Below, one piece after another: positions 7,926 through 32,763 of a DNA stretch of 64,000 nucleotides. Every line of letters starts with the position of its first letter. Position 1 is the stretch's first letter. Where the stretch lies: contig NZ_JACHNZ010000021.1 of the NCBI RefSeq assembly GCF_014199685.1, positions 1 to 64,000 of the forward strand, in the 5' to 3' direction. A model generated the notes under the pieces. That model did not search any database. It saw only the letters and a program-made list of their open reading frames with translations, and was not told the origin of the DNA. The translations under genes were made by a program, and so were the position numbers. The DNA is from Sphingosinicella soli. Lineage in GTDB: Bacteria > Pseudomonadota > Alphaproteobacteria > Sphingomonadales > Sphingomonadaceae.

Positions 7926-7974
7926 CCGAATTTCCCGCCCATGCTTACCGCCTGAATCACTTGTTGCCACATAA

Positions 7975-8035: not shown

Positions 8036-8602
8036 ATGCCCCGCGTCTTTGTCCCCGCTGAATTCGAACACGACCCTTCCGCCTATGTCTGGACGAAATA
8101 TGCGCCCGAAATCGGCGCGGCGGCAGCGGGCTATTCGCGCGCGGTGTACGAACGCTCGCTGCTTAGCCTCCGCGAGATGGAGGCCGCGCGCATCCGCACC
8201 GCCGACATCAACGGCTGCAAGCTCTGCAAGGGCATGCGCGCCGCGCGCGACCTGCCGGGCCATCTGGAGCGGTCCGGCGGCGATCCGTCGATCGCGGTCA
8301 CCGCGCGCAGCACGCAGCCCGCCCCCGGCGAGGATTTCTACGAAGCGATCTACAATGGCGATCCCGATGGGCGCCTGTCCGAACGCGAAAAACTGATCGT
8401 CGAATATGCCGACCGTTTCGGCAACGCCCCGCAATCCATGGACGGCGACGAGGATTTCTGGGCGCGGATGCATGCGGCCTTCAGCGATGCCGAAATCGTC
8501 GATGCGACGTTCAGCATCGGCAGCTGGGTCGCGCTCGGCCGGTTGACGCACATCCTCGATCTCGACGGCGTGTGCATGCCGACATTCGCAAACGCCAACT
8601 GA
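8036..8602 (+). CDS. Carboxymuconolactone decarboxylase (CMD/AhpD) family protein
   Basis: A 188-residue helical protein with a CxxC pair (Cys61, Cys64 in NGCKLCKGM), as in AhpD-like peroxidase partners. It also has the helix-rich C-terminal half usual for CMD proteins (LIVEYADRFG and a later segment). Members either decarboxylate ring-cleavage lactones or act as CxxC thiol peroxidases. The CxxC favours the latter or an unknown redox role. AAAGGA precedes ATG 8036. A Rieske oxygenase gene follows after 20 bp, so the two are likely co-transcribed. Confidence 0.78.
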   Translation: MPRVFVPAEFEHDPSAYVWTKYAPEIGAAAAGYSRAVYERSLLSLREMEAARIRTADINGCKLCKGMRAARDLPGHLERSGGDPSIAVTARSTQPAPGEDFYEAIYNGDPDGRLSEREKLIVEYADRFGNAPQSMDGDEDFWARMHAAFSDAEIVDATFSIGSWVALGRLTHILDLDGVCMPTFANAN

Positions 8603-8622
8603 CCCATACACGGAAGACCGCA

Positions 8623-9993: not shown

Positions 9994-10009
9994 CGAGGCA
10001 GCCGCGTTG

Positions 10010-12173: not shown

Positions 12174-12470
12174 TCAGTTCAGCGACCGGTAGAACTGGAT
12201 CGTCATGTCTTCCGCCAGACAATCGAAGATCGGCGGAACGAGACGGTCATGGAAATCGATCTGCATATGATGATCGAACGCGGCATCATCGCGGAAGGTG
12301 GCCACGCAGACGAAAAGATCGGGATCCTCGTCGGACTGAAACAGCTCGTAAACCAGTGCATCCGGTTCCTGCGCATGGACGAGCTGCTTCATTTCCACCT
12401 GAAGTCGAATCAGTTCGTCGCGCTTTTCCGGTTTTGTGCGCAGCTGCGCGATGAAACTCTTGCCGCTCAT
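12174..12470 (-). CDS. Antibiotic biosynthesis monooxygenase (ABM)-like protein 2
   Basis: A 98-residue ABM-domain protein (KSFIAQLRTKPEKRDELI, then VYELFQSDEDPDLFVCVATF and HHMQIDFHDRL). It has the same length and layout as the one at 6110-6406. The two copies sit beside the two PQQ dehydrogenase units, so an ABM/PQQ pairing seems to have been duplicated. It overlaps the upstream acyl-CoA ligase by 4 bp (ATGA coupling). The role is unknown: a small quinol/aromatic monooxygenase or an intermediate-binding protein. Confidence 0.75.
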   Translation of the reverse strand: MSGKSFIAQLRTKPEKRDELIRLQVEMKQLVHAQEPDALVYELFQSDEDPDLFVCVATFRDDAAFDHHMQIDFHDRLVPPIFDCLAEDMTIQFYRSLN

Positions 12471-14113: not shown

Positions 14114-14225
14114 CTCTATCCTCCCGCGATTGCGCCGACCCTCCGCGCATGTGGCGGGGCGGGCAGTAGTCTCCGTCAAGACGGTCTGTGGCCGCTTTCC
14201 ATAACCCATAAAGCAGTTCCATATA

Positions 14226-14247
14226 AAAAACAATCTTACCTGATTTT
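14226..14247. promoter_or_regulatory. Island operator, site 4
   Basis: AAAAACAA-N6-CTGATTTT, with TCTTAC at the centre. It lies between the divergent acyl-CoA ligase gene (start 14113) and the SDR gene (start 14318). This is the only copy with A instead of G at position 13. Confidence 0.65.
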
Positions 14248-15923: not shown

Positions 15924-15945
15924 AAAATCAAACATGATTGTTTTT
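15924..15945. promoter_or_regulatory. Island operator, site 5
   Basis: AAAATCAA-N6-TTGTTTTT with an ACATGA centre, between the divergent isomerase-like gene (start 15909) and the Rieske gene (start 15989). It begins only 15 bp from the isomerase start, a position that would allow direct repression. Confidence 0.7.
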
Positions 15946-15988
15946 ATGCAAGACTATGCTAGACAGTGTCAATCAGGAGTTGCGAACC

Positions 15989-17215
15989 ATGGAACTGAAC
16001 AGCCAATCTGTCGAGCGCGTTCATGAAACGATGCAGTACGAACGCAGCCGGAGCACGCCTCCGGAGGATTTCCCCAATCTTCCCGATATCCCCGGCAGGC
16101 GCTATGTCGATCCGGAATTCCTGGCGCTCGAACGCGAACGCATGTGGCAACGCGCCTGGCTTTACGCCGGGCACACCGACCAGCTCCCCAATCCCGGCAG
16201 CTGGTTCCTGACGCGTAACACCGGCGCCCCGGTCATCGTGGTGCGCGATCTGGAGGGCACGGTCCGCGCCTTCTACAACACCTGCCAGCACCGAGGCGCG
16301 CCGCTGGTCAACACCGAGTCGGGCGATGCGCGCGGCTTCGTGTGCGGCTACCACGGCTGGAGCTACACGCTGGAAGGCAAGCTGACCGCCGTGCGCGACA
16401 AGCGCGATTTCGTCGATCTCGATTTTTCGTGCCGTTCGCTGGTGGCGGTCCGCTGCGAGCTGCTCGGCAGTCTGATCTTCATAAACGAAGATCCCGACGC
16501 CCAGCCTTTGAACGAGCACATCGGGCCGATGGCGAAGGAACTCGCGCAATACGATCTTGAGAATCTTCGTCTCGTCGATTCGCGAAGCTACGAGGTTCAG
16601 TGCAACGTCAAGGTTCTGCTCGACGCCTTCCTCGAAGTTTATCATCTCAAATCGATTCACCAGCACACCGTCGATCGTTTTCTCGATCATCGCGGCATGT
16701 TCGTGACGTTATGGCCCAACGGACACAGCCGCATGCTGACCCCGAATCGCCGGCCGGACTGGAAGGATCCGGGCACCATCGGCATGCCCAAGATTCCCAC
16801 GATCACCGAAGTTCCTGCCGACAACAACGTCAGCTATCACGTCTATCCGAACTTCGTGATGCCTGCGTCGGACAGCGGCATTCCGCTGCTGCAATTCTGG
16901 CCGACATCAGACAAGACGTGCCGCGTGGTGTCGAGCTGGATCGCGCCCGATTACGATGCATCCAAGGACAATCCGCTGTGGGATACGCGCATCGCGAACT
17001 GGGAGCGCATTCTCTACGAAGATCTGCAATTCGCGCCGCAGATTCAGGAATCCCTGGAAAGCAAAGGCTTTCGCGGCATGCCGCTCAATTATCAGGAGCG
17101 CCGCATCTATCACTGGCATGAAGAGCTCGACCGTCGCATCGGGCTCAATCAGGTGCCGCCCGAAGCGCGTGTGGAGCAGGTGCTCCACGATTTCGTCGAC
17201 AGCGGCGAGGGCTGA
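15989..17215 (+). CDS. Aromatic-ring-hydroxylating oxygenase, Rieske alpha subunit (2 of 3)
   Basis: A 408-residue Rieske oxygenase. Cluster ligands are Cys99/His101 (CQHRGAP) and Cys119/His122 (CGYHGWSY), and the iron-site helix reads FLEVYHLKSIH. The CGYHGW form and the shorter length set it apart from the other two oxygenases of the island, so it probably acts on a different intermediate. AGGAG at 15975 supports the ATG at 15989. It begins a unit that continues with a TesB-like thioesterase and a MaoC-like hydratase. No electron-transfer partner is encoded nearby. Confidence 0.92.
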   Translation: MELNSQSVERVHETMQYERSRSTPPEDFPNLPDIPGRRYVDPEFLALERERMWQRAWLYAGHTDQLPNPGSWFLTRNTGAPVIVVRDLEGTVRAFYNTCQHRGAPLVNTESGDARGFVCGYHGWSYTLEGKLTAVRDKRDFVDLDFSCRSLVAVRCELLGSLIFINEDPDAQPLNEHIGPMAKELAQYDLENLRLVDSRSYEVQCNVKVLLDAFLEVYHLKSIHQHTVDRFLDHRGMFVTLWPNGHSRMLTPNRRPDWKDPGTIGMPKIPTITEVPADNNVSYHVYPNFVMPASDSGIPLLQFWPTSDKTCRVVSSWIAPDYDASKDNPLWDTRIANWERILYEDLQFAPQIQESLESKGFRGMPLNYQERRIYHWHEELDRRIGLNQVPPEARVEQVLHDFVDSGEG

Positions 17216-19244: not shown

Positions 19245-20405
19245 TCAGCGGCGCTGGTCGAACCGGCGCCCCAGCATGGCTCCGGCGATGTTCACCTTCT
19301 GGATATCGATCGCCCCGCCCGCGATCCCCCATCCCCAGCTGTCGCGCAGGCGGCGTTCCATCGGGAACTCCTTGGAATAGCCGTATGCGCCCATCAACTG
19401 CATCGCGTCGCCCGTCACTTCGCGGGCGATGGAATTCGCGAAGCATTTCGCCGTCGAACTGTCGAGGATGGACGGGAGCCCGTCCTGCGCGTTCGCCGCC
19501 GCGCGCCAGATCAGCAGCCGCGCCGCCTCGCACTTCATGTGCATCTCGGCGAGCTTGATCTGAACCGCCTGGAAATCCGCGATCGGCTTGCCGAACTGCT
19601 TGCGCTCCTGCACGTATTCGGAAACATCCTCTAGCGCGCCCGACGCCTGCCCGAGCGCCATCGTGGCGTTGCCGCAGCGTTCCAGATCGAACGCCTCCAT
19701 CAGCTTCTTGAAGCCGCCGGCGGCAACGACGATGTTTTCGGCCGGAACCTCGCAATCATCGAAATAAAGATCGGACGACGGCACGCCGCGAAAGCCCATC
19801 AGCTGCTCGTTGGAACCGAATGTGAGACCCGGGGTATCCTTTTCCACGAGCACGGCACCGATGGCTTTTGCACCGGGGTCGTCCGAAAGTCTGCAATACA
19901 CGACATAGCCGTCGGCATGACCGCCGCCCGAGCACCAGCGCTTGATGCCGTTCAGGATCACCTTGTCGCCGCGAATCTCGCCGCGCGTTTTCAGATCGGT
20001 CAGCGCCGAACCGGCGTCGGGCTCCGACATCGATACGGCAACCTGCATCTCGCCCCGGCAGACGGCAGGAACGACGCGCGCCTTCAGCGCGTCGGACGCG
20101 AAGTGTTCGATGGCGCGCACCGGCCCCACCGACGATTCGAAGATCGGGAAGGCGACGGCGGACGAAATCTTCGCGAATTCCTCAAGCACGATCAGCGCCT
20201 CGACATTGCCGAGGCCGAGCCCACCAAGGTCAGCGGGAATGTTGATGCCGAGGAAACCCATCTCCGCATACCGGCGCACGAGATCGTGGCTCGGCGGTTT
20301 GTTGTCGCGCTCCAGTTCGGCGGCGATGGCGGGCAGTTCCGCACGTGCGAACGCGCGGGCGGCAGCGCGTAGCTGCTCCTGCTCGGAACTCAGTCTGAAA
20401 TCCAT
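19245..20405 (-). CDS. Acyl-CoA dehydrogenase
   Basis: A 386-residue flavoprotein that introduces an alpha,beta double bond into an acyl-CoA. Landmarks are MGFLGINIPADLGGLG, VSMSEPDAGSALTDLKTRG, FRGVPSSDLYFDDCEVP and ERKQFGKPIADFQAVQ. The residue equivalent to the catalytic Glu of medium-chain enzymes is Gly (IAGGAIDIQ). A Glu is present in FDLERCGNA, the position used by isovaleryl- and long-chain-type enzymes, so a branched or bulky acyl-CoA is a plausible substrate. It precedes the azoreductase-like gene and follows the E2 gene. ATG 20405 gives a full N-terminus. Confidence 0.9.
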   Translation of the reverse strand: MDFRLSSEQEQLRAAARAFARAELPAIAAELERDNKPPSHDLVRRYAEMGFLGINIPADLGGLGLGNVEALIVLEEFAKISSAVAFPIFESSVGPVRAIEHFASDALKARVVPAVCRGEMQVAVSMSEPDAGSALTDLKTRGEIRGDKVILNGIKRWCSGGGHADGYVVYCRLSDDPGAKAIGAVLVEKDTPGLTFGSNEQLMGFRGVPSSDLYFDDCEVPAENIVVAAGGFKKLMEAFDLERCGNATMALGQASGALEDVSEYVQERKQFGKPIADFQAVQIKLAEMHMKCEAARLLIWRAAANAQDGLPSILDSSTAKCFANSIAREVTGDAMQLMGAYGYSKEFPMERRLRDSWGWGIAGGAIDIQKVNIAGAMLGRRFDQRR

Positions 20406-20440: not shown

Positions 20441-21829
20441 CTAAAGCAGTTCGGGTCGCTCGATCAGATTTGCGAGCGCCGCCATGAAACGTCCGCCGTC
20501 GGCACCGTCGATCGCGCGGTGATCGCACGACAGCGACAGATGCAGAACCGGCACGATACGAATGGCCCCGTCGTCGTCTATCGGTTCCGGCCGCGCGGTG
20601 CCGACGGCAAGGATCGCACCCTGCGGCGGATTGATGATCGCATCGAATTGCTCGACCCCGAACCCGCCGAGGTTGGAAAGCGAAAAGCTGCCCCCGGTGA
20701 ATTCTTCGGGTTTGAGCTTGCCCGCCTTCGCCCGCTGCGCCAGCGCCTGCATCGCGGCCGATATGTCGACGATGCTGCGTTCGTCGGCGCGCGTCACGAT
20801 GGGCGTGACGAGCCCCTTTTCGGTGGCGACGGCGACGGCGATATCGGCCGATTCGAACCGGTGAATATCGTTGCCGTGGACCTGAATGTTCACCTGCGGC
20901 ACTTCCATCAGCGCAAGCGCGCACGCCCTGATGAGGTAATCGTTGACGCTGGGACGCTGCCCCTGCACCGCCGCCCGCAGCGCCAGCAGCCGGTCCGCCC
21001 GCACCCTGCGCCGAATATAGAAATGCGGAATCGTCGCCTTGGATTCGGTCAACCGGCGCGCGATGGTCCGCCGCATCGACGACATCGCGTTTACCGTCAC
21101 GCCTGATACCGGCGGCGCAACTACGGTGGCCTGAGGCGCCACAGGCTGAATTTGCGCGAGGACATCCGCCTTGCGAACGCGCCCGCGCGCGCCGGTGCCG
21201 GAAATTCCGGCGAGCGGCACGTCGTGAAGGACAGAGAGCCGCTTCGCCATCGGCGATGCGAAAACGTCCGTATCGGGGCTGAGCGGATATGGCCCGGCGA
21301 GTGTATTCGACGCAACCGGCCGCACAACCTGATCGATATCCTGCGCCGTGATCCGCCCGCCCGGACCGGAGCCCTTGATCGTCGCAACATCGACACCGGC
21401 TGCGGCCGCGCGTGTCAATGCGACCGGGCTGATGGCGATCCCTGCGGGAATTTCAGGCGCGGCGGGGGGTGGCGGAGCAGCAGCGGGCGGTGCCTTCGCA
21501 TCGGCGGCGCCTGCGTCGGGCTCGAAGCTCGTATCGGCCTGTTTGAAATTCGCAACGAAGGCGTCGATGTCCGCCGCTGCGGCCTCGCCGTCCGACAGCA
21601 CCGCCAGCAGCGCGCCGACCGGATAGGTGCCGCCCGCCTCGGCGAGTATGCGCACGAAACGCCCGGCCGCTTCCGCCTCGATCTCGTTGGTGATCTTGTC
21701 GGTTTCAACGAGCGTGAGGACCGCGCCCTTCGTAAAGGGTTCGTTCTCTCCCACCATCCATTCCGAGATGGTTCCCTCACTCATTTCGATGCCCCATTTC
21801 GGCATCGTGAAGGCCTTGAGCGTTGCCAT
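20441..21829 (-). CDS. 2-oxoacid dehydrogenase complex E2 (dihydrolipoamide acyltransferase)
   Basis: A 462-residue E2 with one N-terminal lipoyl domain (ETDKITNEIEA, lipoylated Lys), a proline/alanine linker, a peripheral-subunit-binding domain (SPMAKRLSVLHDVPL, then GRVRKADVLA) and a C-terminal catalytic domain with DHRAIDGADGGRF. It transfers the acyl group made by E1 to CoA. Together with E1-beta and E1-alpha just upstream it forms an acetoin- or branched-chain-type complex. No E3 (lipoamide dehydrogenase) gene is present in the window, so the housekeeping E3 must serve. Confidence 0.92.
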   Translation of the reverse strand: MATLKAFTMPKWGIEMSEGTISEWMVGENEPFTKGAVLTLVETDKITNEIEAEAAGRFVRILAEAGGTYPVGALLAVLSDGEAAAADIDAFVANFKQADTSFEPDAGAADAKAPPAAAPPPPAAPEIPAGIAISPVALTRAAAAGVDVATIKGSGPGGRITAQDIDQVVRPVASNTLAGPYPLSPDTDVFASPMAKRLSVLHDVPLAGISGTGARGRVRKADVLAQIQPVAPQATVVAPPVSGVTVNAMSSMRRTIARRLTESKATIPHFYIRRRVRADRLLALRAAVQGQRPSVNDYLIRACALALMEVPQVNIQVHGNDIHRFESADIAVAVATEKGLVTPIVTRADERSIVDISAAMQALAQRAKAGKLKPEEFTGGSFSLSNLGGFGVEQFDAIINPPQGAILAVGTARPEPIDDDGAIRIVPVLHLSLSCDHRAIDGADGGRFMAALANLIERPELL

Positions 21830-21840
21830 GGCCCCGCCCC

Positions 21841-22851
21841 TCAGCGGAATGCGAGAACGTGGCGAACCGCGTCCTCGATCTTTTGCGGAGACGGCACCCA
21901 GGCGCGTTCGAGTTCGCGCGCGTACGGGATCGGCGAATGCGGCCCCGTGACCATCGCCGGCGGCGCCTTCAGGCTCGTGAACGCCTTGGATGCGACGATG
22001 GCGGCAATGTCGGCGGCCAGGCTGCAGCGCGGCGGGCTTTCGTCCACGATGACCAGCCGTCCCGTCTCCTCGACCGAATCGAGAATGGCTTCCTCGTCAA
22101 GCGGACTCGTCGTCCGAAGGTCGAGCAGATCGGCGCCGATGCCTTCGGCCGCCAGCTTGTCGCATGTCTTTTCGGCAAACCCGACCATGCGTCCGCACGC
22201 CACGATGGTCACGTCGCCGCCTTCGCGCACGACACGCGCCTCGCCGAAGCGCTGGCGATACTCGCCGTCGGGAACCTCGCCCTTCACGCCGTAGAGCGTC
22301 TTGTGTTCCATGAACATCACAGGGTCATCGCCGCGCAGCGCCTCGGTGAGCAGCCCCTTGGCGTCGGCGGGCGTGGCGGGAAGCACCACCTTCAGACCCG
22401 GCATCGCGGTCAACAGCGCATAGACCGACTGGCTGTGCTGCGCCGCCGCGTTCATGCCCGCGCCGTAGATCATCCGCACCACGGCCGGGCATTTCGTCTT
22501 GCCGCCGAACATGTAGCGAAACTTCGCCATCTGGTTCCAGAGCTGGTCGAGGCTGACGCCGATGAAGTCCGCGAACATCAGTTCCGCGACCGGCCGCTTG
22601 CCGGCAAGCGCCGCGCCCGCCGCCGCGCCGATGATGGCGCTTTCCGAAATCGGCGTATCGATGACACGGCCCGCGCCGAACTTCGCGTAGAGCCCCCCGG
22701 TGGTTCCCCAGATGCCGCCGATCGCTTCCTGGCCACCGGCCGTTCCGGCACCGCCGACGACGTCCTCGCCGAGCACGATAATATTGGAATCGCGTTCCAT
22801 TTCAGCGTGAAGCGTGCGGTTGATCGCCTCGCGGATATTCATGATTGCCAC
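21841..22851 (-). CDS. 2-oxoacid dehydrogenase complex E1 beta subunit
   Basis: A 336-residue transketolase-like beta subunit: NIREAINRTLHAEMERD at the N-terminus, VLGEDVVGGAGTAGG, TPISESAIIGAAAGAAL and LLDLRTTSPLDEEAI in the C-terminal domain. It pairs with the alpha subunit to form the thiamine-diphosphate active site that decarboxylates a 2-oxoacid or cleaves acetoin. It starts 13 bp downstream of the alpha gene and ends 11 bp before the E2 gene, so the three are clearly one unit. Confidence 0.92.
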   Translation of the reverse strand: MAIMNIREAINRTLHAEMERDSNIIVLGEDVVGGAGTAGGQEAIGGIWGTTGGLYAKFGAGRVIDTPISESAIIGAAAGAALAGKRPVAELMFADFIGVSLDQLWNQMAKFRYMFGGKTKCPAVVRMIYGAGMNAAAQHSQSVYALLTAMPGLKVVLPATPADAKGLLTEALRGDDPVMFMEHKTLYGVKGEVPDGEYRQRFGEARVVREGGDVTIVACGRMVGFAEKTCDKLAAEGIGADLLDLRTTSPLDEEAILDSVEETGRLVIVDESPPRCSLAADIAAIVASKAFTSLKAPPAMVTGPHSPIPYARELERAWVPSPQKIEDAVRHVLAFR

Positions 22852-22864
22852 GGCCGATCCCCCC

Positions 22865-23836
22865 TCAATAATCCACGTAGACGTCTTTGGCGACGCTTTC
22901 CGGATCGGGCGGCGGTGCCGCCCGCGCCTCGCTCACGGCCTCGTCGATCAGCTGCGCGACCTCCGCATCGATGGCGTCCAACTCAGCAAGATCGAGCAGA
23001 CCCGCATCGCCCACGCGCGCACGAAACGCCTTCAGACAGTCGCGCTCCTCGCGGATCCGGTCCAGCTCGCCGGGCCCGCGATAGCGCTGCGGATCGCCCT
23101 CGAAGTGGCCGTAGAACCGCTCCGTATCCAGCTCGATCGCCGCCGGACCGTTGCCCGCGCGGACGTAATCGAGGAGTTCCCGCATGGTCTCATACGTGTC
23201 GAAATAGTCGGAGCCGTTGGCGCGCCAGGCTTTCATGCCGAACGCTTCCGCGCGGCTGGCGATGTCCTTGTTCGTGCCGACCGCATAATCGACGCCGGTG
23301 TGTTCGGAATAGTGGTTGTTCTCGAATACGAAAATGGCAGGCGCCTTGACGACGACCGCAAGGTTCATGGCCTCGAACGTCGTCCCCTGGTTGCAGGCGC
23401 CGTCACCGGAAAAGGCGATCGCGACATGGCCGTTTCCGTCCAGCTTGGCGGCGATCGCAGCGCCGACCGCTTGCGGCGCACCGGCGCCGACGATCCCGTT
23501 CGCCCCCAGCATGCCCAGCGAAAGGTCCGCGATATGCATGGACCCGCCGCGCCCTTTACAGAGCCCGTCCCTGCGGCCGTAGATTTCCTTCATCATCCCC
23601 TTCACGTCGCAGCCCTTGGCGATGCAGTGCCCGTGGCCGCGGTGCGTGGAAACAATGAAATCCTCGACCGCGAGATGATCGCAAACCCCCACGGCAGCCG
23701 CTTCCTGGCCGCAGTAAAGATGCGTGAAACCGGCAATCTCGCCGGTCTTGATCTCGTCGTGCAGCCGTTCCTCGAACTGGCGGATCGTCGCCATCCGGCG
23801 ATAGGCGCCAAGCAGATCATCCCTCGAAAGCTGCAT
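22865..23836 (-). CDS. 2-oxoacid dehydrogenase complex E1 alpha subunit
   Basis: A 323-residue thiamine-diphosphate-binding subunit. The TPP motif is GDGACNQGTTFEAMNLA running on to FENN. HLYCGQEAAAVGVC and HRGHGHCIAKG are typical of acetoin dehydrogenase or pyruvate/branched-chain E1 alpha. Two ATGs lie close together (23842 and 23836). GGGAG sits about 7 bp from the second and only 1 bp from the first, so 23836 is preferred. It follows the third Rieske gene after 50 bp and leads the E1-E2 cassette. Confidence 0.9.
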   Translation of the reverse strand: MQLSRDDLLGAYRRMATIRQFEERLHDEIKTGEIAGFTHLYCGQEAAAVGVCDHLAVEDFIVSTHRGHGHCIAKGCDVKGMMKEIYGRRDGLCKGRGGSMHIADLSLGMLGANGIVGAGAPQAVGAAIAAKLDGNGHVAIAFSGDGACNQGTTFEAMNLAVVVKAPAIFVFENNHYSEHTGVDYAVGTNKDIASRAEAFGMKAWRANGSDYFDTYETMRELLDYVRAGNGPAAIELDTERFYGHFEGDPQRYRGPGELDRIREERDCLKAFRARVGDAGLLDLAELDAIDAEVAQLIDEAVSEARAAPPPDPESVAKDVYVDY

Positions 23837-23886
23837 CTTCATTCTCCCGCCCTTCCGCCTGGAAGGATCATTTTTTCGTCCGTATG

Positions 23887-25221
23887 TCAGATATCGCCGG
23901 GTGTTTTGCCGCCCGGCCCATAGATGTAATCGTCGAGAACCTTGTGGAAATGCCGAATGCGCAGCTCCTGGTCGCCGACCCACAAGCCCTTGAACGCATC
24001 CGAATGCATGCCCTTCTGCACGGTCGGCAGATTGTACGCGTCCTGATCCAGCACCTGCCCGATCGAGCGGTCGCCGTGTTTGAAGCGCTTGTGCTTGGGC
24101 CTCTCCGGCCATTCCTCTCCGTCCGGCACCAGTTCGAACAGCCAGATGTCGTAGAGCATCTTGTTCGGGTCGGTCGCGTGCGGACGCTGCCGGAACAGCA
24201 TCACGTCATCGGCATGCACGTTCATGGATACGTTGGGGAAGATCGTATAATGATAGTCGTCGGTCAGCTGGTCGTCGTTCAGCTCCGAATAGTCCTTGCC
24301 CTGCGCCGCGCCGTGCTTGCGCTTGAACAGCTGGACGTCGCGGCGGATATCGCTGGTGCGCCCTTCATATTCCGCCGGGTCCATGCCCGCCTTCACCATC
24401 ACCTCGTAAATCGCCGGCGGAATTGCGGACGGCAGCGCAACTCGCGGACTGATCGCGGCGAACGGCACCAGATAGCGATTGTGCTTTTCGTAGCAATCGA
24501 TCTGGACGTTCACATCATCGAGATACCACTGAAGCTGCGGGTGAATGCCCTGCACGTGGTACGTCTCGCTGAAGGCATCGACGCTGGCCTTCCAGTTGCA
24601 ATCCCACTCGACCGTGATGTCGCGCGCCCACGCCATGCGTTCCATATGATAGGGACCGAGATGCTGCGGCATCGGATCGAGATACTGCTCCAGCGGCTCG
24701 ACGTCGGGATTGAGCGAATACCAGACGAACCCGCCCCATTCCGCGCAGGGATAGCGCTGCAGGGACGCGCCGGGAGGGCAGCCCTGCGGAAACGTGTCGA
24801 GATCGGGAATTCGCTCGATGCGTCCATCCAGACCGTAGGTCCAGTGATGGTACAGGCAGCGGAAATGCTCGACATTGCCGAGCCCTTCGGGGCGGAGCCG
24901 GTTGCCGCGATGCAGGCAGACATTGGGGAACGCACGCACCGAGAGATCCGGCTGGCGCACGATCAGCACCGATTCCTTGCCGATTTCCGTGCAGATGTAA
25001 TCGCCCGGTTCCGGCATATCGTCGCAGCGCCCGCCCAGCAGCCAGACCTTGGTCCAGATCCGCTCCCACTCCAGCTTCATGAACGCTTCGGTGGTGTATC
25101 GCTCTGCCGGGATGATGTCATGGCCAAGGTCGGGGTCTTCCGCCTTCCAGGCAGGCGTACCCTCCGGCCAATCCTGCGGATTGACGCGAATGACCTCAAT
25201 CTGGCGCTTGACGTCCGGCAT
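23887..25221 (-). CDS. Aromatic-ring-hydroxylating oxygenase, Rieske alpha subunit (3 of 3)
   Basis: A 444-residue Rieske oxygenase. Cluster ligands are Cys102/His104 (CLHRGNR) and Cys122/His125 (CLYHHWTYG). The iron site is in SETYHVQGIHPQ, with a likely Asp in LTDDYHYTIFPN. The layout, with the Rieske ligands at almost the same residue numbers, matches the oxygenase at 8623-9993, so the two are probably paralogues with different ring positions or substrates. It lies between the SDR and the E1-alpha gene in the long minus-strand unit. No reductase or ferredoxin is encoded nearby. Confidence 0.92.
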   Translation of the reverse strand: MPDVKRQIEVIRVNPQDWPEGTPAWKAEDPDLGHDIIPAERYTTEAFMKLEWERIWTKVWLLGGRCDDMPEPGDYICTEIGKESVLIVRQPDLSVRAFPNVCLHRGNRLRPEGLGNVEHFRCLYHHWTYGLDGRIERIPDLDTFPQGCPPGASLQRYPCAEWGGFVWYSLNPDVEPLEQYLDPMPQHLGPYHMERMAWARDITVEWDCNWKASVDAFSETYHVQGIHPQLQWYLDDVNVQIDCYEKHNRYLVPFAAISPRVALPSAIPPAIYEVMVKAGMDPAEYEGRTSDIRRDVQLFKRKHGAAQGKDYSELNDDQLTDDYHYTIFPNVSMNVHADDVMLFRQRPHATDPNKMLYDIWLFELVPDGEEWPERPKHKRFKHGDRSIGQVLDQDAYNLPTVQKGMHSDAFKGLWVGDQELRIRHFHKVLDDYIYGPGGKTPGDI

Positions 25222-25248: not shown

Positions 25249-26010
25249 CTAGAAATGCGTGCGGTTGGTGAAGCCGCCATCAACGACGAGATGCGATCCG
25301 TTGCACCAGCTTGCCGCCGGGCTGGCGAGGAAAACGATGCAGCGGGCGATCTCCTCGGGTGTTCCCAGGCGTCCGAGCGGCTGCTGGCGCAGCTGCGACT
25401 GATAGAATTTTTCCATCGTGCCCTTGATCATGTCCCAGTTGCCGCCCTCGAACTCCACCGGACCCGGCGAAACGACGTTGACGCGAATCCCGTCCTTGCC
25501 GTGGAACAGCGCAAGCTGTTTGCCCCACGTGACAAGCGACGCCTTCATGGCGTTGTACGCCTGCGGCCCGCCCATAGCCTCTCCGGCAGAGGTCGTGGCG
25601 ATCAGCACGATCGCGCCGCCACCCTTCTCCGTCATGGTCGGCAGCACCGCCTCGACAGCGCGAACCGGGCCCATCACGTCGACCTCGAAGGCATTCTGCC
25701 AGTATTTCTCGCTGCCCATGCCGCCGCCCGCCGACGTGATCGGAATCAGGATGTCGCAGCCGTCCAGCGCCTCGATCGCCCAGGCCAGCCAATCCTTGTA
25801 ATCATCGGCTTTCTTTACGTTGACGGCCTTGCCGACGACGTTGGTGCCGTACTTGCGCAGGTTCGCGACCGCGTCTTTCACGCCGTCCTCGGAACGGGCG
25901 GCGATGGCGATGTCGCAGCCTTCGCGCGCAAGCGCCTCGGCGGTCGCCATGCCGATGCCGCGGGCCGCGCCAACCAGAATTGCCTTCTTGCCTTGCAGCC
26001 CCAGATCCAT
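25249..26010 (-). CDS. Short-chain dehydrogenase/reductase
   Basis: A 253-residue SDR with the cofactor motif VGAARGIGMAT, active-site Thr/Ser in IATTSAGEA, catalytic YNAMK and the C-terminal VDGGF. GGAGG stands 5 bp before ATG 26010. It heads a long unit (SDR, Rieske oxygenase, E1-alpha, E1-beta, E2, acyl-CoA dehydrogenase, azoreductase-like) that diverges from the TetR gene across operator site 6. It is likely an alcohol or cis-diol dehydrogenase acting after a Rieske oxygenase, but that is inference from position. Confidence 0.87.
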   Translation of the reverse strand: MDLGLQGKKAILVGAARGIGMATAEALAREGCDIAIAARSEDGVKDAVANLRKYGTNVVGKAVNVKKADDYKDWLAWAIEALDGCDILIPITSAGGGMGSEKYWQNAFEVDVMGPVRAVEAVLPTMTEKGGGAIVLIATTSAGEAMGGPQAYNAMKASLVTWGKQLALFHGKDGIRVNVVSPGPVEFEGGNWDMIKGTMEKFYQSQLRQQPLGRLGTPEEIARCIVFLASPAASWCNGSHLVVDGGFTNRTHF

Positions 26011-26146
26011 CCCCGCCTCCTTAAACTTTAGTTTCGCAACGATTTTCGCAGCGCCGTCCACAGATCGCGCGCATTCCACCATAGCCGAGAGGTTGCGCCG
26101 CCTGCTTGCTCAGACTTTTGAACCAAGCCCTGCACATTGGCAAGCA

Positions 26147-26287: not shown

Positions 26288-26956
26288 ATGGCTTTAGCTG
26301 CTGTCCGATCCGCCACGGCCCGACGCAAATCAAAGGCCGACGCTTCCGGGGCGCCGACGCTTCAGTCGCTCAAGAGCGGCCAGACGCGCATGAGACTGGT
26401 GGAAGCCACGATCCGCTGCATCGTCAAGAACGGCTACTCCAACACCACGACGCCGCAGATCGCCAACGAAGCCGGCCTGTCGCGGGGCGCCATGCTGCAT
26501 CACTTTGAAAATGGTGCGGCACTCATCAAGGCGGCCATCATCGAGCTTCACGAAAAGCGCCTTCGCGCTTTCCGCCGCGCCGCCGATACGGGGCACGGCG
26601 ACCCGACCACGCTGGTGCGCACGTACTGGCAACAGATTCAGAAGCCCGCCTTCATCGCGTTTCATGAACTTGCGCTGGCGGCACGGACGCATGCCGATCT
26701 GGCGCGCATGCTGAATCCGCTGCAGGTCGAATTTCGGGAGCGCTACATGGCGACGGCGTTCTCGCTGTTCCCGGAATGGGCGCACCATCGCAAGCAGTTC
26801 GATCTCGCCATGGCCCTGTCGCAGAACCTTCTGGAAGGCCTCGCCATCAATGTTCAGACGGGTGCGACCGATCCGGAGATGGTGGAGCCTATGCTGGAAC
26901 TTCTGGAAAACCAGATTCGTGCAATGAACCCGGCCCTCGCAAAGGCGTCAAGCTAG
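26288..26956 (+). CDS. TetR/AcrR-family regulator, probable regulator of the island
   Basis: A 222-residue regulator. After a basic N-terminal extension of about 30 residues comes a helix-turn-helix domain (LVEATIRCIVKNGYSN, then IANEAGLSRGAMLHHF), then a helical effector-binding domain of about 140 residues. TetR proteins are dimers that bind palindromes and release DNA when a small ligand binds. Its own promoter region carries one of the eight conserved palindromes of the island, and it is the only complete TetR gene in the window. It is therefore the best candidate for binding them. Overlaps the convergent ThuA-like gene by 9 bp. Confidence 0.88.
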   Translation: MALAAVRSATARRKSKADASGAPTLQSLKSGQTRMRLVEATIRCIVKNGYSNTTTPQIANEAGLSRGAMLHHFENGAALIKAAIIELHEKRLRAFRRAADTGHGDPTTLVRTYWQQIQKPAFIAFHELALAARTHADLARMLNPLQVEFRERYMATAFSLFPEWAHHRKQFDLAMALSQNLLEGLAINVQTGATDPEMVEPMLELLENQIRAMNPALAKASS

Positions 26957-27679
26957 GCCGGGCATGCCCCACCGCACGCCGCGGCGGAGCAATTCGTAGA
27001 AGACCGGGTAATTCCATCCGCAGCGCTGCGGATGGGGCCAGAACTTCGTGGCAGGGAGCATGTCGTAATGACCGCGGCAGTGACCCAAGGTCAGGTAAAG
27101 CACCGCGCCTTGTCCGAGCTTGCGCTCGTAAAGGACGGGAACCTGCGGCTCGTTCCAGTCCGCATCGCGGAATTCGGAACACTGTCCGGTGAAACTGGTG
27201 TGAAGCAAAACGTCGATCTCGGCCGTGCGGCGGCTGAGGTAGAGTTCGTCCTCGATACGGAAATCGCGCAGCCCTTCGGTCAGCGGATGGTCGGGGCGGG
27301 TGACGAAAACCTTGAAGGGTTCGATGGGCGGATGCGCGGTGAAACGGGTTCCGACAAGCGCCATGAAATCGGGTGTATCGTCCGGCGTGTCGACGATACC
27401 GTCGTCGGCAATGCGAAGAATCGAATTGGTGCCGTGAAGCGCAAGCCAGCGACCGCCGCGCTCCAGAAACGCCCGCAGCACCTCGGTCTGCTCCGTCGTC
27501 GGCACCAGATCGCAGGTGTAGGTAATCAGCAGATCGGCGGCTTCGATCCGGTCCGTGTCGGAATAATCCGAAGCGACCGAGGTGCGGATTTGCGGGTGCT
27601 CGGCGAGCAGTTTCAGCAGTTCCAGACGCGCGAAATCGATATCGTGATATTTCCCCGCCGCAACCAGATGAGCCTTCAT
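26948..27679 (-). CDS. ThuA-like domain protein
   Basis: A 243-residue protein of the ThuA / class-I-glutamine-amidotransferase-like fold. Segments such as LLITYTCDLVPT, GGRWLALHGTNS, FKVFVTRPDHPLTEGL and VLYLTLGHCRGHY are typical of the family. Some ThuA homologues take part in disaccharide catabolism, where 3-keto sugars are formed, but the reaction is not established for this branch. It diverges from the CoA-transferase gene. The 77-bp gap between them lacks a full copy of the island operator. Confidence 0.75.
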   Translation of the reverse strand: MKAHLVAAGKYHDIDFARLELLKLLAEHPQIRTSVASDYSDTDRIEAADLLITYTCDLVPTTEQTEVLRAFLERGGRWLALHGTNSILRIADDGIVDTPDDTPDFMALVGTRFTAHPPIEPFKVFVTRPDHPLTEGLRDFRIEDELYLSRRTAEIDVLLHTSFTGQCSEFRDADWNEPQVPVLYERKLGQGAVLYLTLGHCRGHYDMLPATKFWPHPQRCGWNYPVFYELLRRGVRWGMPGLA

Positions 27680-27756
27680 CGTTCCCGTCCCTTACGCACA
27701 TGCATGCGCACGAGCCTATGGCGGCGGCGCCGCATTGCAAGCCCCGGAGAAACACT

Positions 27757-28989
27757 ATGAGAGGTCGTGGACAAGGCCCGCTGCAAGGGGTCAGGATTCT
27801 GGATCTGACCAGCGTTCTGATGGGCCCCTACGCAACCCAGATCTTCGCCGATCTGGGCGCGGACGTCATCAAGATCGAAGGGCCTGCGGGCGACACCACC
27901 CGTTATCTTCCGCCGGGCCACGATCCGGCGCGCGGCGGCATGTTTCTGAACGTCAATCGCGGCAAGCGCAGTCTCGCGCTCGATCTCAAGCAGCCCGCCG
28001 CGCGCGAAGTCCTGCTGAAGCTTGCGGCAAATGCCGACGTCTTTGTGCATTCGATGCGCGCCCAGGCCATCGGCCGCCTCGGCCTCGACTACAAGGCACT
28101 GCGCGCGGCGAACCCCCGGATCGTCTACGCCAATCTCTACGGCTTCGGACGCAACGGCCCCTACCGCGACTATCCCGCCTACGACGACATCGTTCAGGCC
28201 GCATCGGGCCTCGTCGATCTTCAGGCGCGCCTGTCGAACGGCGTGCCGACCTATCTCAGCACCGTCGTTGCGGACAAGGTCGCAGGGCTGACCGGAACCT
28301 ACGCGATCATCGCGGCGCTGTTCGCCCGTGAACGCACGGGGCTTGGCCAGGAAATCGAAGTGCCGATGTTCGAGACGCTGGTCTCGTTTGCGATGGTCGA
28401 ACATCTCTGCGGATCGATTTTCGAACCGCCGCTCGGACCGCCCGAATACGTGCGGGCAACGTCTGAATCGCGCCGCCCCTATCGCACCAGCGACGGCTAC
28501 ATCGGCGTGATGATCTACAACGACAAGCACTGGCGGGCGTTCTTCGACGTGCTCGGCAACCCGGACTGGTCACGCGACCCCATGTTCGCATCGATGCGCA
28601 GCCGCACCGAGAACATCACCACCGTCCTCGCGAAACTGGCGACCGTGATCGAGGGACGCACGACCGATGAATGGCTGGACCTGCTTCGAAAGGCCGAAAT
28701 CCCCGCCACGCAGATCGCCACGCTGACCGACCTTCTGCACGATCCCCACCTGATGGAGACCGGCTTCTGGGAAGAGCGGGACACGCAGGACGGCAAGCTC
28801 CGGTTTCCCGGAATTCCGACGCATTTTTCCGAAACGCCCGGCGCGATCGGCGATGCGGGACCGGCGCTCGGCGCGGACAGCAGGGATGTCCTCACCGAAG
28901 GCGGCTTCACCGACGCCGAGATCGAGGCACTCATGGAAAGCGGCGCGGCGATCATGCCGAAGATGGAGGAGCACGATGGCCAGCAATGA
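27757..28989 (+). CDS. CaiB/BaiF (class III) CoA-transferase
   Basis: A 410-residue CoA-transferase that moves CoA between two carboxylic acids. The N-terminus GVRILDLTSVLMGPYAT and GADVIKIEGPAGD are hallmarks, and the catalytic Asp is probably in PAYDDIVQAASG. A CoA-transferase beside an AMP-forming ligase suggests two routes to activate the substrate or transfer of CoA between intermediates. CGGAGAA precedes ATG 27757. The DUF35 gene overlaps its 3' end by 14 bp. Confidence 0.9.
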   Translation: MRGRGQGPLQGVRILDLTSVLMGPYATQIFADLGADVIKIEGPAGDTTRYLPPGHDPARGGMFLNVNRGKRSLALDLKQPAAREVLLKLAANADVFVHSMRAQAIGRLGLDYKALRAANPRIVYANLYGFGRNGPYRDYPAYDDIVQAASGLVDLQARLSNGVPTYLSTVVADKVAGLTGTYAIIAALFARERTGLGQEIEVPMFETLVSFAMVEHLCGSIFEPPLGPPEYVRATSESRRPYRTSDGYIGVMIYNDKHWRAFFDVLGNPDWSRDPMFASMRSRTENITTVLAKLATVIEGRTTDEWLDLLRKAEIPATQIATLTDLLHDPHLMETGFWEERDTQDGKLRFPGIPTHFSETPGAIGDAGPALGADSRDVLTEGGFTDAEIEALMESGAAIMPKMEEHDGQQ

Positions 28990-29344
28990 CGCGCCGGAAG
29001 CCGTGTGGACGGCCGCGCTTGCCGAGGGACGCTTCCTGCTCCAGCGCGCGCAATCGACAGGCACGCGTATCTTTCCGCCGCGCGTGATGGAGCCCGGCAC
29101 CGGCGAAACCGATCTCGAATGGATCGAGGCGATGGGCACGGGAACCGTCTATTCCGTCACCGTCATCGGCCGCAAGCCGCCTGCCGATCCCTACCATGTC
29201 GCGCTTATCGACCTAGACGAAGGCCCCCGGCTGATGAGCCGCGTCGAAGGCGTCGATGCGGAAGCGGTGCATATCGGCATGCGGGTGAAATCCCGCGTGG
29301 CGCAAGAGGATGGAACCCCCATTCTCGTGTTCGATCCGGTCTGA
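28976..29344 (+). CDS. DUF35 (OB-fold) protein without zinc-ribbon cysteines
   Basis: A 122-residue DUF35 protein, made of a short N-terminal helix, a rubredoxin-like ribbon and an OB-fold (TGTVYSVTVIGRKP, YHVALIDLDEGPRLM). DUF35 proteins pair with SCP2-type thiolases. In steroid side-chain degradation such pairs are retro-aldolases. The ribbon normally holds four cysteines; here the segment LLQRAQSTGTRIFPPRVM and what follows has none, so it cannot bind zinc in the usual way. GGAGGA precedes ATG 28976. The stop lies 10 bp before the thiolase-fold gene, which suggests a complex of the two products. Confidence 0.82.
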   Translation: MASNDAPEAVWTAALAEGRFLLQRAQSTGTRIFPPRVMEPGTGETDLEWIEAMGTGTVYSVTVIGRKPPADPYHVALIDLDEGPRLMSRVEGVDAEAVHIGMRVKSRVAQEDGTPILVFDPV

Positions 29345-29354
29345 GGAGATCCTG

Positions 29355-30506
29355 ATGGGCGGCAGCTTTCCAAGAGGCGCAACCGCAATCTCCGGCCTTT
29401 CGACCTTCGGGATCGGCGAAGCGCCCGGATACACATCGATGGAACTGGCCGCCAAGGCGTCGCTGCTCGCGGTCGCAGACGCCGGGTTGCGTCTCGAAGA
29501 TGTCGACGGGCTTTTCGTCTGCCTGCCGGACGATTTTTTCGCGGGCCTGTCGGTCGCCGAATACCTGGGCATCCAGCCCCGCTTTACCGACAACAACCGA
29601 ACGGGCGGCTCCGCGTTCATGAGCCACATGATAACCGCGGCGCTCGCGCTTTCAGCAGGGTACATCGATGTCGCGCTGATCGCTTACGGCTCGAACCAGC
29701 GCACCGCCGGAGGCAAACTCGCCACACCGTTCAAGAACAACCGCTGGGAGGCGCCGTATCGTCCGGTCTTCCCCGTTTCCTCCTATGCGCTCGCGGCCGC
29801 GCGGCACATGCATGATTACGGCACGACACGCGCCCAGCTCGCCGAAGTCGCCGTCGCAGCGAGACGGTGGGCGGACGGAAATCCGGAAGCCTTCATGCAG
29901 GGGCCTTTGACGATAGAGGAGTGCCTTGCGGCCCGCGTCATCAGCAGTCCGCTCTCCGTAAAGGATTGCTGCCTCGTCACCGACGGCGCGGCGGCGATCG
30001 TCATGACCCGCACCGACCGCGCGCGCCATGCGCCCAAGCCCGCCGTTCCCGTGCTCGGCGGGGCCGCCGCGACATGGTGGAACGCGATATCGCAGGCGCA
30101 GGACGTCACCGTCACCGCCGCCGCCGAATCCGGTCCGCGCGCCTACGCGATGGCCGGTCTCGGCCCTGCCGATATCGATGTCGTGCAACTCTACGATGCC
30201 TTCACGATCAACACGATCCTGTTCCTCGAAGACCTCGGCTTCTGCCCGAAGGGCGAAGGCGGGCGGTTCGTCGAGAATGGCGCGATTGCGCCGGGCGGGA
30301 GTCTGCCCGTGAACACCAACGGCGGCGGCCTGTCGTGCTGCCACCCCGGCATGTACGGGCTCTTCGCCATTGTCGAAGCGGCAAGGCAGATACGCGGAGA
30401 GGCCGCCAATCAGATCGAAGGCGTCTCAACGGCGTTGGCGCACGGCAACGGCGGCACCTTGTCGAGTCAGGCGACGGTCATTCTGGGTTCGCTTGAAACA
30501 CTCTGA
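29355..30506 (+). CDS. Thiolase-fold (SCP-x/Ltp-type) enzyme, likely aldolase
   Basis: A 383-residue thiolase-superfamily protein of the lipid-transfer-protein-like branch. Landmarks are GIGEAPGYTSMELAA, DIDVVQLYDAFTI, and NTNGGGLSCCHPGMYG near the C-terminus. The first catalytic segment reads NNRTGGSAFMSHMI, where true thiolases have a nucleophilic Cys; Cys is absent there. That absence and the adjacent DUF35 gene recall Ltp2/DUF35 retro-aldolases, which cleave 3-hydroxyacyl-CoA into a ketone or aldehyde and a short acyl-CoA. The start at 29355 follows GAGGAG. A thiolytic role is the alternative. Confidence 0.85.
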   Translation: MGGSFPRGATAISGLSTFGIGEAPGYTSMELAAKASLLAVADAGLRLEDVDGLFVCLPDDFFAGLSVAEYLGIQPRFTDNNRTGGSAFMSHMITAALALSAGYIDVALIAYGSNQRTAGGKLATPFKNNRWEAPYRPVFPVSSYALAAARHMHDYGTTRAQLAEVAVAARRWADGNPEAFMQGPLTIEECLAARVISSPLSVKDCCLVTDGAAAIVMTRTDRARHAPKPAVPVLGGAAATWWNAISQAQDVTVTAAAESGPRAYAMAGLGPADIDVVQLYDAFTINTILFLEDLGFCPKGEGGRFVENGAIAPGGSLPVNTNGGGLSCCHPGMYGLFAIVEAARQIRGEAANQIEGVSTALAHGNGGTLSSQATVILGSLETL

Positions 30507-30599: not shown

Positions 30600-30702
30600 A
30601 ATGTTTGCTTGGGTAGAGTGATCCCCGATCGCGCTGCCCGCCCGCATCCGGAACCTCAGGAACGGGACATGCAAGATCGTGTGTACAGGCGAAGGAGCGG
30701 GC

Positions 30703-31608
30703 ATGGCCCAACCGAAGATTTTTAAGCCCGACCCGAACGATCCCGACCGCCCGAAGCGGGGATTGACGTCGGATGACCTCGCTGTTCGCGAAACCGTGTA
30801 TCGTCCTGATCTGCTCCAGGGCCAGAAAGTCCTCATCAGCGGCGGCGGCAGCGGTCTGGGCAAGGCCGCGGCATTCCTCGCCGCACGCCTGGGCGCCAAA
30901 GTCGCCATTTGCGGACGCAGCGAAGACAAGCTCGAACTCGTTCGTGACGAGATCCACAAGGCCACGGGCGTGGAAATCCACACCCAGTCGACGAACATCC
31001 GCGATCCCGAGGCTGTCGAGGCGCTCATCGCCGATGTCCACGCGCAGCTCGGAGGGCTCGACACGCTCGTCAACAATGCCGGGGGTCAGTTCCCGCAGGA
31101 CGCTATCGATTTCAGCCGAAAAGGCTGGCTGGCGGTCATCGACACCAATCTCAACGGCAGCTGGTGGATGATGCAGGAGGCCGCGAAAGTCTGGCGCGAG
31201 AAAGGCCAGCCCGGCAACATCGTCAACATCGTCGCCAACGTGGAACGCGGCATGCCGCAGGCCGCCCACACCTGCGCGGCCCGCGCCGGCGTGATCTACC
31301 TGTCCAAAACACTGGCGACCGAATGGGCGCCCTTCCAGATCCGCATCAACTGCATCGGCCCGGGCGTGATCGAAACCGAAGGCTTCTACATGTACCCGGA
31401 AGAAGCGCTGAAACGCTTCCACAAGGCCAACCCCATGAAGATGCGGGGCGACGCCTGGGATGTGGCCGAAGCCATCGCCTACCTCGCCTCGCCCGCCGCG
31501 CGCTTCATCAACGGCGACCTGCTCGTTCTCGATGGCGGTCAGGCGCAGTGGGGCGTGATATGGCCCGCCGGGATGCCCGATTATTTCAGCGAGGACGGCG
31601 CCGCCTGA
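30703..31608 (+). CDS. SDR of the enoyl-CoA reductase (PECR/DECR-like) branch
   Basis: A 301-residue SDR with an N-terminal extension of about 45 residues, cofactor motif SGGGSGLGKAA and NNAGGQF. At the active site it reads AHTCAARAGVIYLSK instead of YxxxK, as in the peroxisomal-type 2-enoyl-CoA reductase and dienoyl-CoA reductase branch, which have an AARAG or AAKAG form. The C-terminal region ends in LVLDGG. It may reduce or isomerise an unsaturated acyl-CoA. GAAGGAG precedes ATG 30703. It overlaps the convergent VOC gene by 28 bp. Confidence 0.83.
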   Translation: MAQPKIFKPDPNDPDRPKRGLTSDDLAVRETVYRPDLLQGQKVLISGGGSGLGKAAAFLAARLGAKVAICGRSEDKLELVRDEIHKATGVEIHTQSTNIRDPEAVEALIADVHAQLGGLDTLVNNAGGQFPQDAIDFSRKGWLAVIDTNLNGSWWMMQEAAKVWREKGQPGNIVNIVANVERGMPQAAHTCAARAGVIYLSKTLATEWAPFQIRINCIGPGVIETEGFYMYPEEALKRFHKANPMKMRGDAWDVAEAIAYLASPAARFINGDLLVLDGGQAQWGVIWPAGMPDYFSEDGAA

Positions 31609-32211: not shown

Positions 32212-32763
32212 ATGCAGGCTCTGGAAGACCGCCTCACGCGGCTGGAAGCAGAATCGCAGATCCGCCAACTCGTCGCACGTTATTGCTTCTACCTCGACGA
32301 CCGCTTGATGGAACGGGTGCCAAGTCTGTTTACCGATGATGCCACGCTGCGATCCGCCGACGGCGTGATGAACGCCGTGGGCGTGGAGGCGATCGTGGAG
32401 CAGTTCCACGGCCGGTTCGACGTTCTGGGTCCGGGCCATCATTTCATGCACGATGTTCAGATCGATTTCGGCGACGACAAAACCACGGCGCGCGGCCGCG
32501 TCTCCGGCCATGCCGAACTCTGGCGGCGCGGCCAAATGATGGTCACCGCCCTCCGTTACGACGATGTGTATCGCAGCACCGAGGACGGCTGGAAATTCGC
32601 CGACCGGGTCATAAACTTCCTCTATTACGTGCCGGTCAGCGAATACCCGGACATTCTGCGCACGCCGGACCGGAACCGCGCGTACGACGAACCGAAGCCG
32701 GCGGACTTCCCCGAACGTCTGCCCAGCTGGATCGCTTATGAAAAATCGCGAGGCCGCTCATGA
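32212..32763 (+). CDS. SnoaL-like (NTF2-fold) protein
   Basis: A 183-residue NTF2-fold protein (LEAESQIRQLVARYCFYLDD, then VPSLFTDDATLR). The family includes polyketide cyclases, ketosteroid isomerase-like proteins and Rieske oxygenase beta subunits. The fold resembles the beta subunit of ring-hydroxylating oxygenases, but the N-terminal helix pattern is that of SnoaL-type proteins. It could be an isomerase/hydratase or an accessory subunit. It is coupled (ATGA) to the VOC gene that follows. Confidence 0.72.
   Translation: MQALEDRLTRLEAESQIRQLVARYCFYLDDRLMERVPSLFTDDATLRSADGVMNAVGVEAIVEQFHGRFDVLGPGHHFMHDVQIDFGDDKTTARGRVSGHAELWRRGQMMVTALRYDDVYRSTEDGWKFADRVINFLYYVPVSEYPDILRTPDRNRAYDEPKPADFPERLPSWIAYEKSRGRS

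Follow-up and report, generated by a model that had tools for sequence, protein, structure and literature searches.

What reaction could be carried out by a thiolase-fold protein that has no nucleophilic cysteine and whose DUF35 neighbor has no zinc-binding cysteines? The question is raised by two adjacent genes in the 64,000-nucleotide (nt) stretch of Sphingosinicella soli DNA analyzed here (contig NZ_JACHNZ010000021.1, positions 1 to 64,000; hereafter the window). A sequence-only reading had assigned the pair to the logic of the Ltp2-ChsH2 retro-aldolases of steroid side-chain degradation, in a metal-free form. We consider it probable (at roughly 0.62) that the pair is a coenzyme A (CoA)-thioester retro-aldolase, made up of a thiolase-fold catalytic subunit and a DUF35 subunit, that acts on a 3-hydroxyacyl-CoA. 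The large PRK06158 subfamily and the DUF35-aldolase kind are known; the new features are that zinc ligands have been lost from much of this family and that the active site is predicted to be of a Tyr/His type.

The thiolase-fold protein is a full member of the NCBIfam family NF004811 (PRK06158; 635.7 bits, above the cut-off of 421), which is named acetyl-CoA acetyltransferase. As a reference thiolase we used the genome's own SCP2-type enzyme (L088; nucleophile motif NNNCATGSS). Its nucleophilic cysteine aligns with Gly84, in agreement with the earlier observation that GGS replaces the nucleophile; its HDCF motif aligns with YDAF, which places Tyr280 opposite the histidine and Ala282 opposite the cysteine; and the histidine of its GHP motif has its counterpart in His330. 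When the window protein and 80 relatives are aligned (81 rows), Gly84, Gly85, Tyr280, Asp281, Ala282, Phe283 and His330 are each invariant, as is N320-T321-N322, and His363 is present in 80/81 rows. The two glycines are not a chance feature of the window protein, as they are found in every row. Both cysteines of a Cys-dependent SCP2-type thiolase, the nucleophile (Gly in 81/81) and the acid of HDCF (YDAF in 81/81), are thus missing, and thiolysis is unlikely because Gly84 leaves no nucleophile at the thiolase site. Judged by its sequences, PRK06158 carries a name that implies an activity whose residues are absent. A literature search on PRK06158 and 4U4E returned only unrelated papers.

Among solved structures, the closest sequence matches are 4u4e (3.9e-97), Ltp2 (6ok1; 1.9e-51) and Sal (9myr; 9.4e-46), and residue correspondences to solved chains were taken from HMMER alignments. 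Tyr280 aligns with Tyr294 of Ltp2 and with Tyr302 of Sal (the Tyr of YDCY), Ala282 with Ltp2 His296 and Sal Cys304, and His330 with Ltp2 Tyr344, Sal Gln352 and the GHP histidine of BbsB. According to PMC12329534, mutation identified Tyr302 of Sal as catalytic, Tyr294 is cited there as catalytic in Ltp2, and Sal likewise has a glycine at the thiolase cysteine site. Ltp2-ChsH2(DUF35), a C3 steroid side-chain aldolase, shares with the window protein the catalytic tyrosine of YDxF and the glycine at the nucleophile site, but has Tyr344 in place of His330 and His296 in place of Ala282, and its DUF35 partner keeps four zinc cysteines, unlike the window DUF35. The two also separate by profile: the PRK07855 model, which an Ltp2-like protein of plasmid pIBU218 passes, gives the window protein 245.1 bits, short of the cut-off of 469. 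Sal-Shy(DUF35), a C5 bile-acid side-chain aldolase, shares the catalytic tyrosine and the glycine but differs in its catalytic Cys304 (Ala282 in 81/81 rows) and Gln352, and the DUF35 of Shy, fused to a MaoC domain, carries a Cys3His zinc site, again unlike the window DUF35. The nearest solved PRK06158 relative, 4u4e from Sphaerobacter, shares GGS and the HPG histidine at 45% identity in the structure alignment. As aligned, the subfamily keeps the aldolase tyrosine (Tyr294, the base in Ltp2) without Sal Cys304 or the Ltp2 acid Tyr344, and has an invariant histidine at the latter's place. We therefore predict a Tyr280/His330 dyad, as opposed to Tyr/Tyr in Ltp2 or Tyr/Cys in Sal, in which His330 would be the acid.

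Predicted structures are consistent with this comparison. The AlphaFold2 model of the DUF35 protein, built from 30 sequences with none or one of the zinc cysteines, has a mean predicted local distance difference test (pLDDT) score of 93, with blocks of residues 21-50 at 92-95. Its best structural match is Trf (6htj; Z 16.6), followed by the partners of Ltp2 (residues 3-122; root-mean-square deviation, rmsd, 3.6) and Sal (5-122; rmsd 2.6), both at Z 14.7. The thiolase-fold model matches Sal best (Z 51.2, rmsd 2.1, 371 residues aligned), then Ltp2 (Z 50.3) and 4u4e (Z 49.9). The likeness to Ltp2-ChsH2 pairs drawn in the sequence-only reading is borne out by these top matches and by the catalytic tyrosine kept from both aldolases.

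The DUF35 protein matches the OB-fold model OB_ChsH2_C (PF01796) at 73.9 bits, above the cut-off of 27.1, and the four-Cys rubredoxin-like ribbon zf-ChsH2 (PF12172) at 20.6 bits, under the cut-off of 23.2. Its translation contains no cysteine at all, as had been claimed for the ribbon, and the four zinc positions read A25, T28, E39 and T42. Relatives occur in at least 584 stretches of the genome collection, and 80 loci were kept for analysis. In 71 of these, the thiolase gene has a DUF35 gene no more than 1.5 kb away (66 on the same strand, 5 on the opposite strand); with the window protein this gives 72 DUF35 proteins: 47 without any zinc-position cysteine, 4 with a single one and 21 with all four. 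The absence is not chance, because 46/71 neighboring DUF35 proteins in other genomes also have none. Replacements in the 47 Cys-less proteins are biased, toward Ser (26) or Ala (8) at position 1, Ser (30) at position 2, Glu (27) or Ala (15) at position 3, and Thr (34) or Ser (9) at position 4. All nine genomes without a nearby DUF35 gene carry a window-type DUF35 elsewhere (10 loci, 50-59% identity), and the zinc cysteines are absent in 10/10 of these; among 20 other DUF35 loci from the same nine genomes, four cysteines align with the zinc positions in 17, and 3 could not be aligned. By this control, loss of zinc ligands tracks the DUF35 of this family and not the organism. At the sequence level, the ligand-free zinc ribbon is genuine, and it is widely shared among family members. 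A literature search on zinc-less DUF35 proteins gave nothing on the point, and no paper was found that remarks on the missing ligands.

The sequence-only reading had treated the missing nucleophile and the missing zinc ligands as one logic, and this did not hold. The nucleophile is gone in 81/81 rows, including 21 with a four-Cys DUF35, and because these 21 members have the same Cys-less active site as the others, nucleophile and zinc ligands were lost in separate events. Neither the DUF35 change nor the change in its partner is unique to the window pair. On a thiolase tree from a quick search (83 rows, two of them long-branched outgroup rows), the four-Cys state versus the rest needs three changes, and the starred branches alone force two for the four-Cys label. 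The tree gives these changes no direction, gain or loss; if four cysteines cannot be regained, there were at least three losses. In the sphingomonad clade that includes the window (21 rows, support 98), zinc cysteines are present in no row.

Gene decay was ruled out on one pair, the window and its nearest relative (L120), by low nonsynonymous (dN) relative to synonymous (dS) divergence (NG86): dN is 0.072 and dS 0.949 for DUF35 (105/118 residues identical), 0.052 and 1.27 for the ribbon stretch, and 0.082 and 1.25 for the thiolase (334/383 identical). Zinc held by other ribbon ligands was set aside, as residues 19-50 contain neither Cys nor His. The model and the low dN of the ribbon stretch support a ligand-free ribbon that would keep its shape without metal; they are no proof that metal is absent, which we infer. 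In one locus (L022), two different DUF35 genes without zinc cysteines (7624-7971 and 9921-10280) flank a single thiolase-fold gene.

The nearest studied pair, by a small margin, is the ibuprofen retro-aldolase pair IpfD-IpfE of plasmid pIBU218 from Rhizorhabdus wittichii MPO218 (IpfD, L083:13639-14826; IpfE, 13228-13626), an assignment made because the protein accessions match those listed in PMC11347016. PRK06158 is the best NCBIfam match of IpfD (287.4 bits, under the cut-off of 421), and BLASTP aligns IpfD with the window protein at 36.0% identity and 174 bits. Like the window protein, IpfD has a YDAF motif and no nucleophilic cysteine, but it carries a tyrosine at the place of His330. Like the window DUF35, IpfE has lost the zinc-ribbon ligands: it matches the OB model alone, with no zf-ChsH2 match even at E 10, and its zinc positions read His, Thr, Trp and Ala in a by-eye ungapped alignment, where MAFFT put gaps. 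Both clusters join CoA activation to a Rieske-type dioxygenase, although ipf uses a CoA ligase and a two-subunit dioxygenase, whereas the window has CaiB and its own Rieske gene, whose product is 29% identical to IpfA over 232 residues. The mutants unable to grow on ibuprofen include one with miniTn5 in ipfD (MIBU12), although an insertion in this operon may have polar effects on ipf genes further downstream (PMC9195938; PMC6063337); ibuprofen dihydrodiol-CoA is described as split by a retro-aldolase into propionyl-CoA and 4-isobutylcatechol (PMC9195938). A nucleophile-less thiolase fold with a zinc-ligand-less DUF35 thus has genetic precedent in ipf. Our literature search combining DUF35 and ibuprofen found no paper. 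A second DUF35/thiolase-fold pair on pIBU218 (L083:938-4556) is of the Ltp2 type (PRK07855, 583 bits), keeps the zinc-ribbon cysteines, and is accompanied by CaiB and an enoyl-CoA hydratase-related gene.

The steroid side-chain assignment was not adopted. IpfD is nearest by profile. In the genome, one DUF35 protein scores above and one below the cut-off, and of two Thiolase_C_1 proteins one is SCP2-type; the search did not extend to other steroid genes.

Retro-aldol cleavage, the reaction suggested in the sequence-only reading, is the likeliest because Sal and Ltp2 are the closest folds, Tyr280 matches their catalytic tyrosine, and IpfD and IpfE are also without the nucleophile and the zinc ligands. 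The type of substrate is suggested by gene linkage, counted in tblastn runs over the 80 loci: the 21 four-Cys loci contain CaiB in 19, a MaoC hydratase in 19, an acyl-CoA dehydrogenase (ACAD) in 18 and a Rieske oxygenase in none, and these hydratase-linked loci, together with IpfDE, point to a 3-hydroxyacyl-CoA. In the mechanism we propose, the adjacent CaiB CoA-transferase would activate an acid, and other enzymes of the cluster, either the Rieske oxygenase or ACAD and a MaoC hydratase, would install the 3-hydroxyl. Tyr280 would accept the proton of this hydroxyl and His330 would protonate the enolate or relay protons, such that the pair would cleave the 3-hydroxyacyl-CoA to an aldehyde or ketone and acetyl- or propionyl-CoA. 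The DUF35 subunit would hold and shape the thiolase-fold subunit, as in Ltp2-ChsH2 and Sal-Shy, with its ribbon serving as a structural docking element whose shape is kept without zinc. If true, the Tyr/His pair would be a third acid-base solution beside those of Ltp2 (Tyr/Tyr) and Sal (Tyr/Cys). Renaming the subfamily as probable aldolases would alter pathway predictions in many Proteobacteria, and because a single family includes natural pairs that have zinc ligands and others that do not, the role of zinc in DUF35 can be tested. We are doubtful about a broader picture, in which metal-free DUF35 aldolases with a Tyr/His dyad are widespread, zinc was discarded more than once with the ribbon fold under selection, and the sphingomonad enzymes may cut side chains from Rieske-hydroxylated CoA esters as a natural counterpart of the ibuprofen pathway.

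Several observations weigh against a retro-aldolase. The acid residues of the known aldolases, Ltp2 Tyr344 and Sal Cys304, are not kept. The order of fold matches alone is weak evidence because an archaeal acetoacetyl-CoA thiolase (6esq_A) follows closely at Z 49.6. The loop that carries His330 (323-332) is modeled at pLDDT < 50, which leaves the geometry of His330 unsupported. IpfD is only 36% identical to the window protein and IpfE 39% identical over the OB part, and the Ltp2-type protein of pIBU218 comes nearly equal to IpfD (32.8%, 170 bits). Finally, in 20 sphingomonad loci (the window excluded), MaoC queries from other clades match at most 1 and the ACAD query 2, while window-type MaoC is found in 8 and window-type ACAD in 3 (against 20/21 four-Cys loci and 39/80 overall); with so few matches, a dehydrogenation-hydration route is not generally linked to the pair in sphingomonads.

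Cys-less SCP2-thiolase-like proteins were once read as non-aldol CoA enzymes, and a Claisen-type C-acylase, hydrolase or decarboxylase that uses Tyr280/His330 is an unlikely alternative. PhlABC-type multicomponent acylases also combine DUF35 with thiolase folds (5m3k is among the matches of both models), but PhlC-type acylases retain the nucleophilic cysteine, and the title of 9skm names C88S. TbSLP, whose fold resembles that of the model (5ab7, Z 49.6), acts very slowly as a malonyl-CoA decarboxylase, but Sal itself showed no such decarboxylation (PMC12329534); and IpfDE and the hydratase-linked loci indicate a 3-hydroxyacyl-CoA instead.

We think it improbable that the pair is catalytically silent and only binds acyl-CoA or passes it on to another enzyme, for example the overlapping CaiB. 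DUF35 has been proposed as an acyl-CoA delivery protein (PMC2954200), and CaiB lies directly upstream in 19/20 sphingomonad loci (midpoint 0.9-1.0 kb from the thiolase gene). However, conservation of Y280, D281, H330 and N320-T321-N322 in every row would be surprising in a pseudoenzyme, and CaiB was not found in 20/80 loci, some of them on short contigs. An ordinary thiolase that recruits a cysteine from elsewhere in the chain would fit the annotation of the family and could draw on Cys206 and Cys297 (81/81 each), Cys205 (80/81) or Cys328 (76/81), but with Gly-Gly at the nucleophile site throughout and the DCC at 204-206 common to Ltp2, a known aldolase, we give this very little credence.

The proposed retro-aldolase pair sits in what looks like one operon (Table 1). 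The genes are adjacent and nearly overlapping, as noted earlier, with a 10-nt gap between the DUF35 stop and the thiolase-fold ATG; an alternative in-frame ATG at 29310 would make them overlap. A GAGGAG before the thiolase-fold start is, in our reading, a putative ribosome site. Because the CaiB stop lies inside the start of DUF35 (14-nt overlap), the unit comprises at least three genes.

Table 1. Positions in the window of the proposed retro-aldolase genes, their key residues and neighboring genes
Feature	Position	Strand	Basis or remark
CoA ligase	12467-14233		within the first 36 kb of the window
ACAD	19245-20405		within the first 36 kb of the window
Rieske oxygenase alpha subunit	23887..25221	-	Rieske and Ring_hydroxyl_A matches
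Short-chain dehydrogenase/reductase (SDR) oxidoreductase, upstream	25249..26082	-	profile scan
TetR-like regulator	26288..26956	+	named by reading the sequence, no scan behind it
CaiB/BaiF (family III) CoA-transferase	27700..28989	+	CoA_transf_3, 2.4e-115
DUF35 (ribbon + OB fold) protein, 122 residues, no cysteine	28976..29344	+	Pfam OB_ChsH2_C, 9.5e-21
Former zinc-ribbon positions A25 (29048), T28 (29057), E39 (29090), T42 (29099)	29048..29101	+	alignment with four-Cys relatives
Thiolase-fold subunit, 383 residues, PRK06158 subfamily, proposed retro-aldolase	29355..30506	+
Gly84-Gly85 at the thiolase nucleophile site	29604..29609	+
Y280-D-A-F motif	30192..30203	+
His330, proposed acid/base partner	30342..30344	+
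SDR, nearest NCBIfam 2,4-dienoyl-CoA reductase (below cut-off)	30679..31608	+

In the 20 sphingomonad loci, homologues of CaiB and of the TetR-like regulator are present throughout, the latter in 0/60 other loci. The upstream SDR is found in 16 (at least 76% identity), the Rieske oxygenase in 15 (at least 71%), the downstream SDR in 9 (at least 70%) and a window-like CoA ligase in 7 (69-70%). The conserved CaiB, TetR-like, SDR and Rieske genes suggest a CoA-dependent catabolic cluster, and in combining CoA activation, Rieske hydroxylation and a DUF35 pair it is similar to the ipf scheme. Attack on an aromatic side chain by this cluster is speculation. The cluster is accessory: the thiolase is found at E <= 1e-100 in 18/199 genomes of the same family, its own included, and at that threshold in neither of two other genomes of the genus that were searched. 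A literature search on Rieske oxygenases and sphingomonads turned up no paper about the cluster.

Also encoded in the first 36 kb are a MaoC protein, an acyl-CoA thioesterase, and a pyrroloquinoline quinone (PQQ) alcohol dehydrogenase with a close copy. E1-alpha, E1-beta and lipoyl E2 genes (20441-23890, minus strand), which resemble a 2-oxoacid or acetoin-type dehydrogenase set, adjoin the Rieske gene, and E1-alpha is found in 9/20 sphingomonad loci. Three Rieske oxygenase alpha-type genes lie within 17 kb (8572-9993, plus; 15938-17215, plus; 23887-25221, minus); a SnoaL_4 protein (32212-32763) has only weak dioxygenase small-subunit matches, and no beta-subunit search was made. A ThuA-domain protein (26948-27679, minus strand) with no obvious role in a CoA pathway is near CaiB in 10/20 sphingomonad loci. 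The two PQQ alcohol dehydrogenase-type genes (1223-3331 and 10010-12136, minus strand), called by Pfam for 10010-12136 and by likeness to it for 1223-3331, encode two closely similar proteins with a cytochrome c end, and between them lie Rieske and SDR genes and one for a TonB-receptor-like protein.

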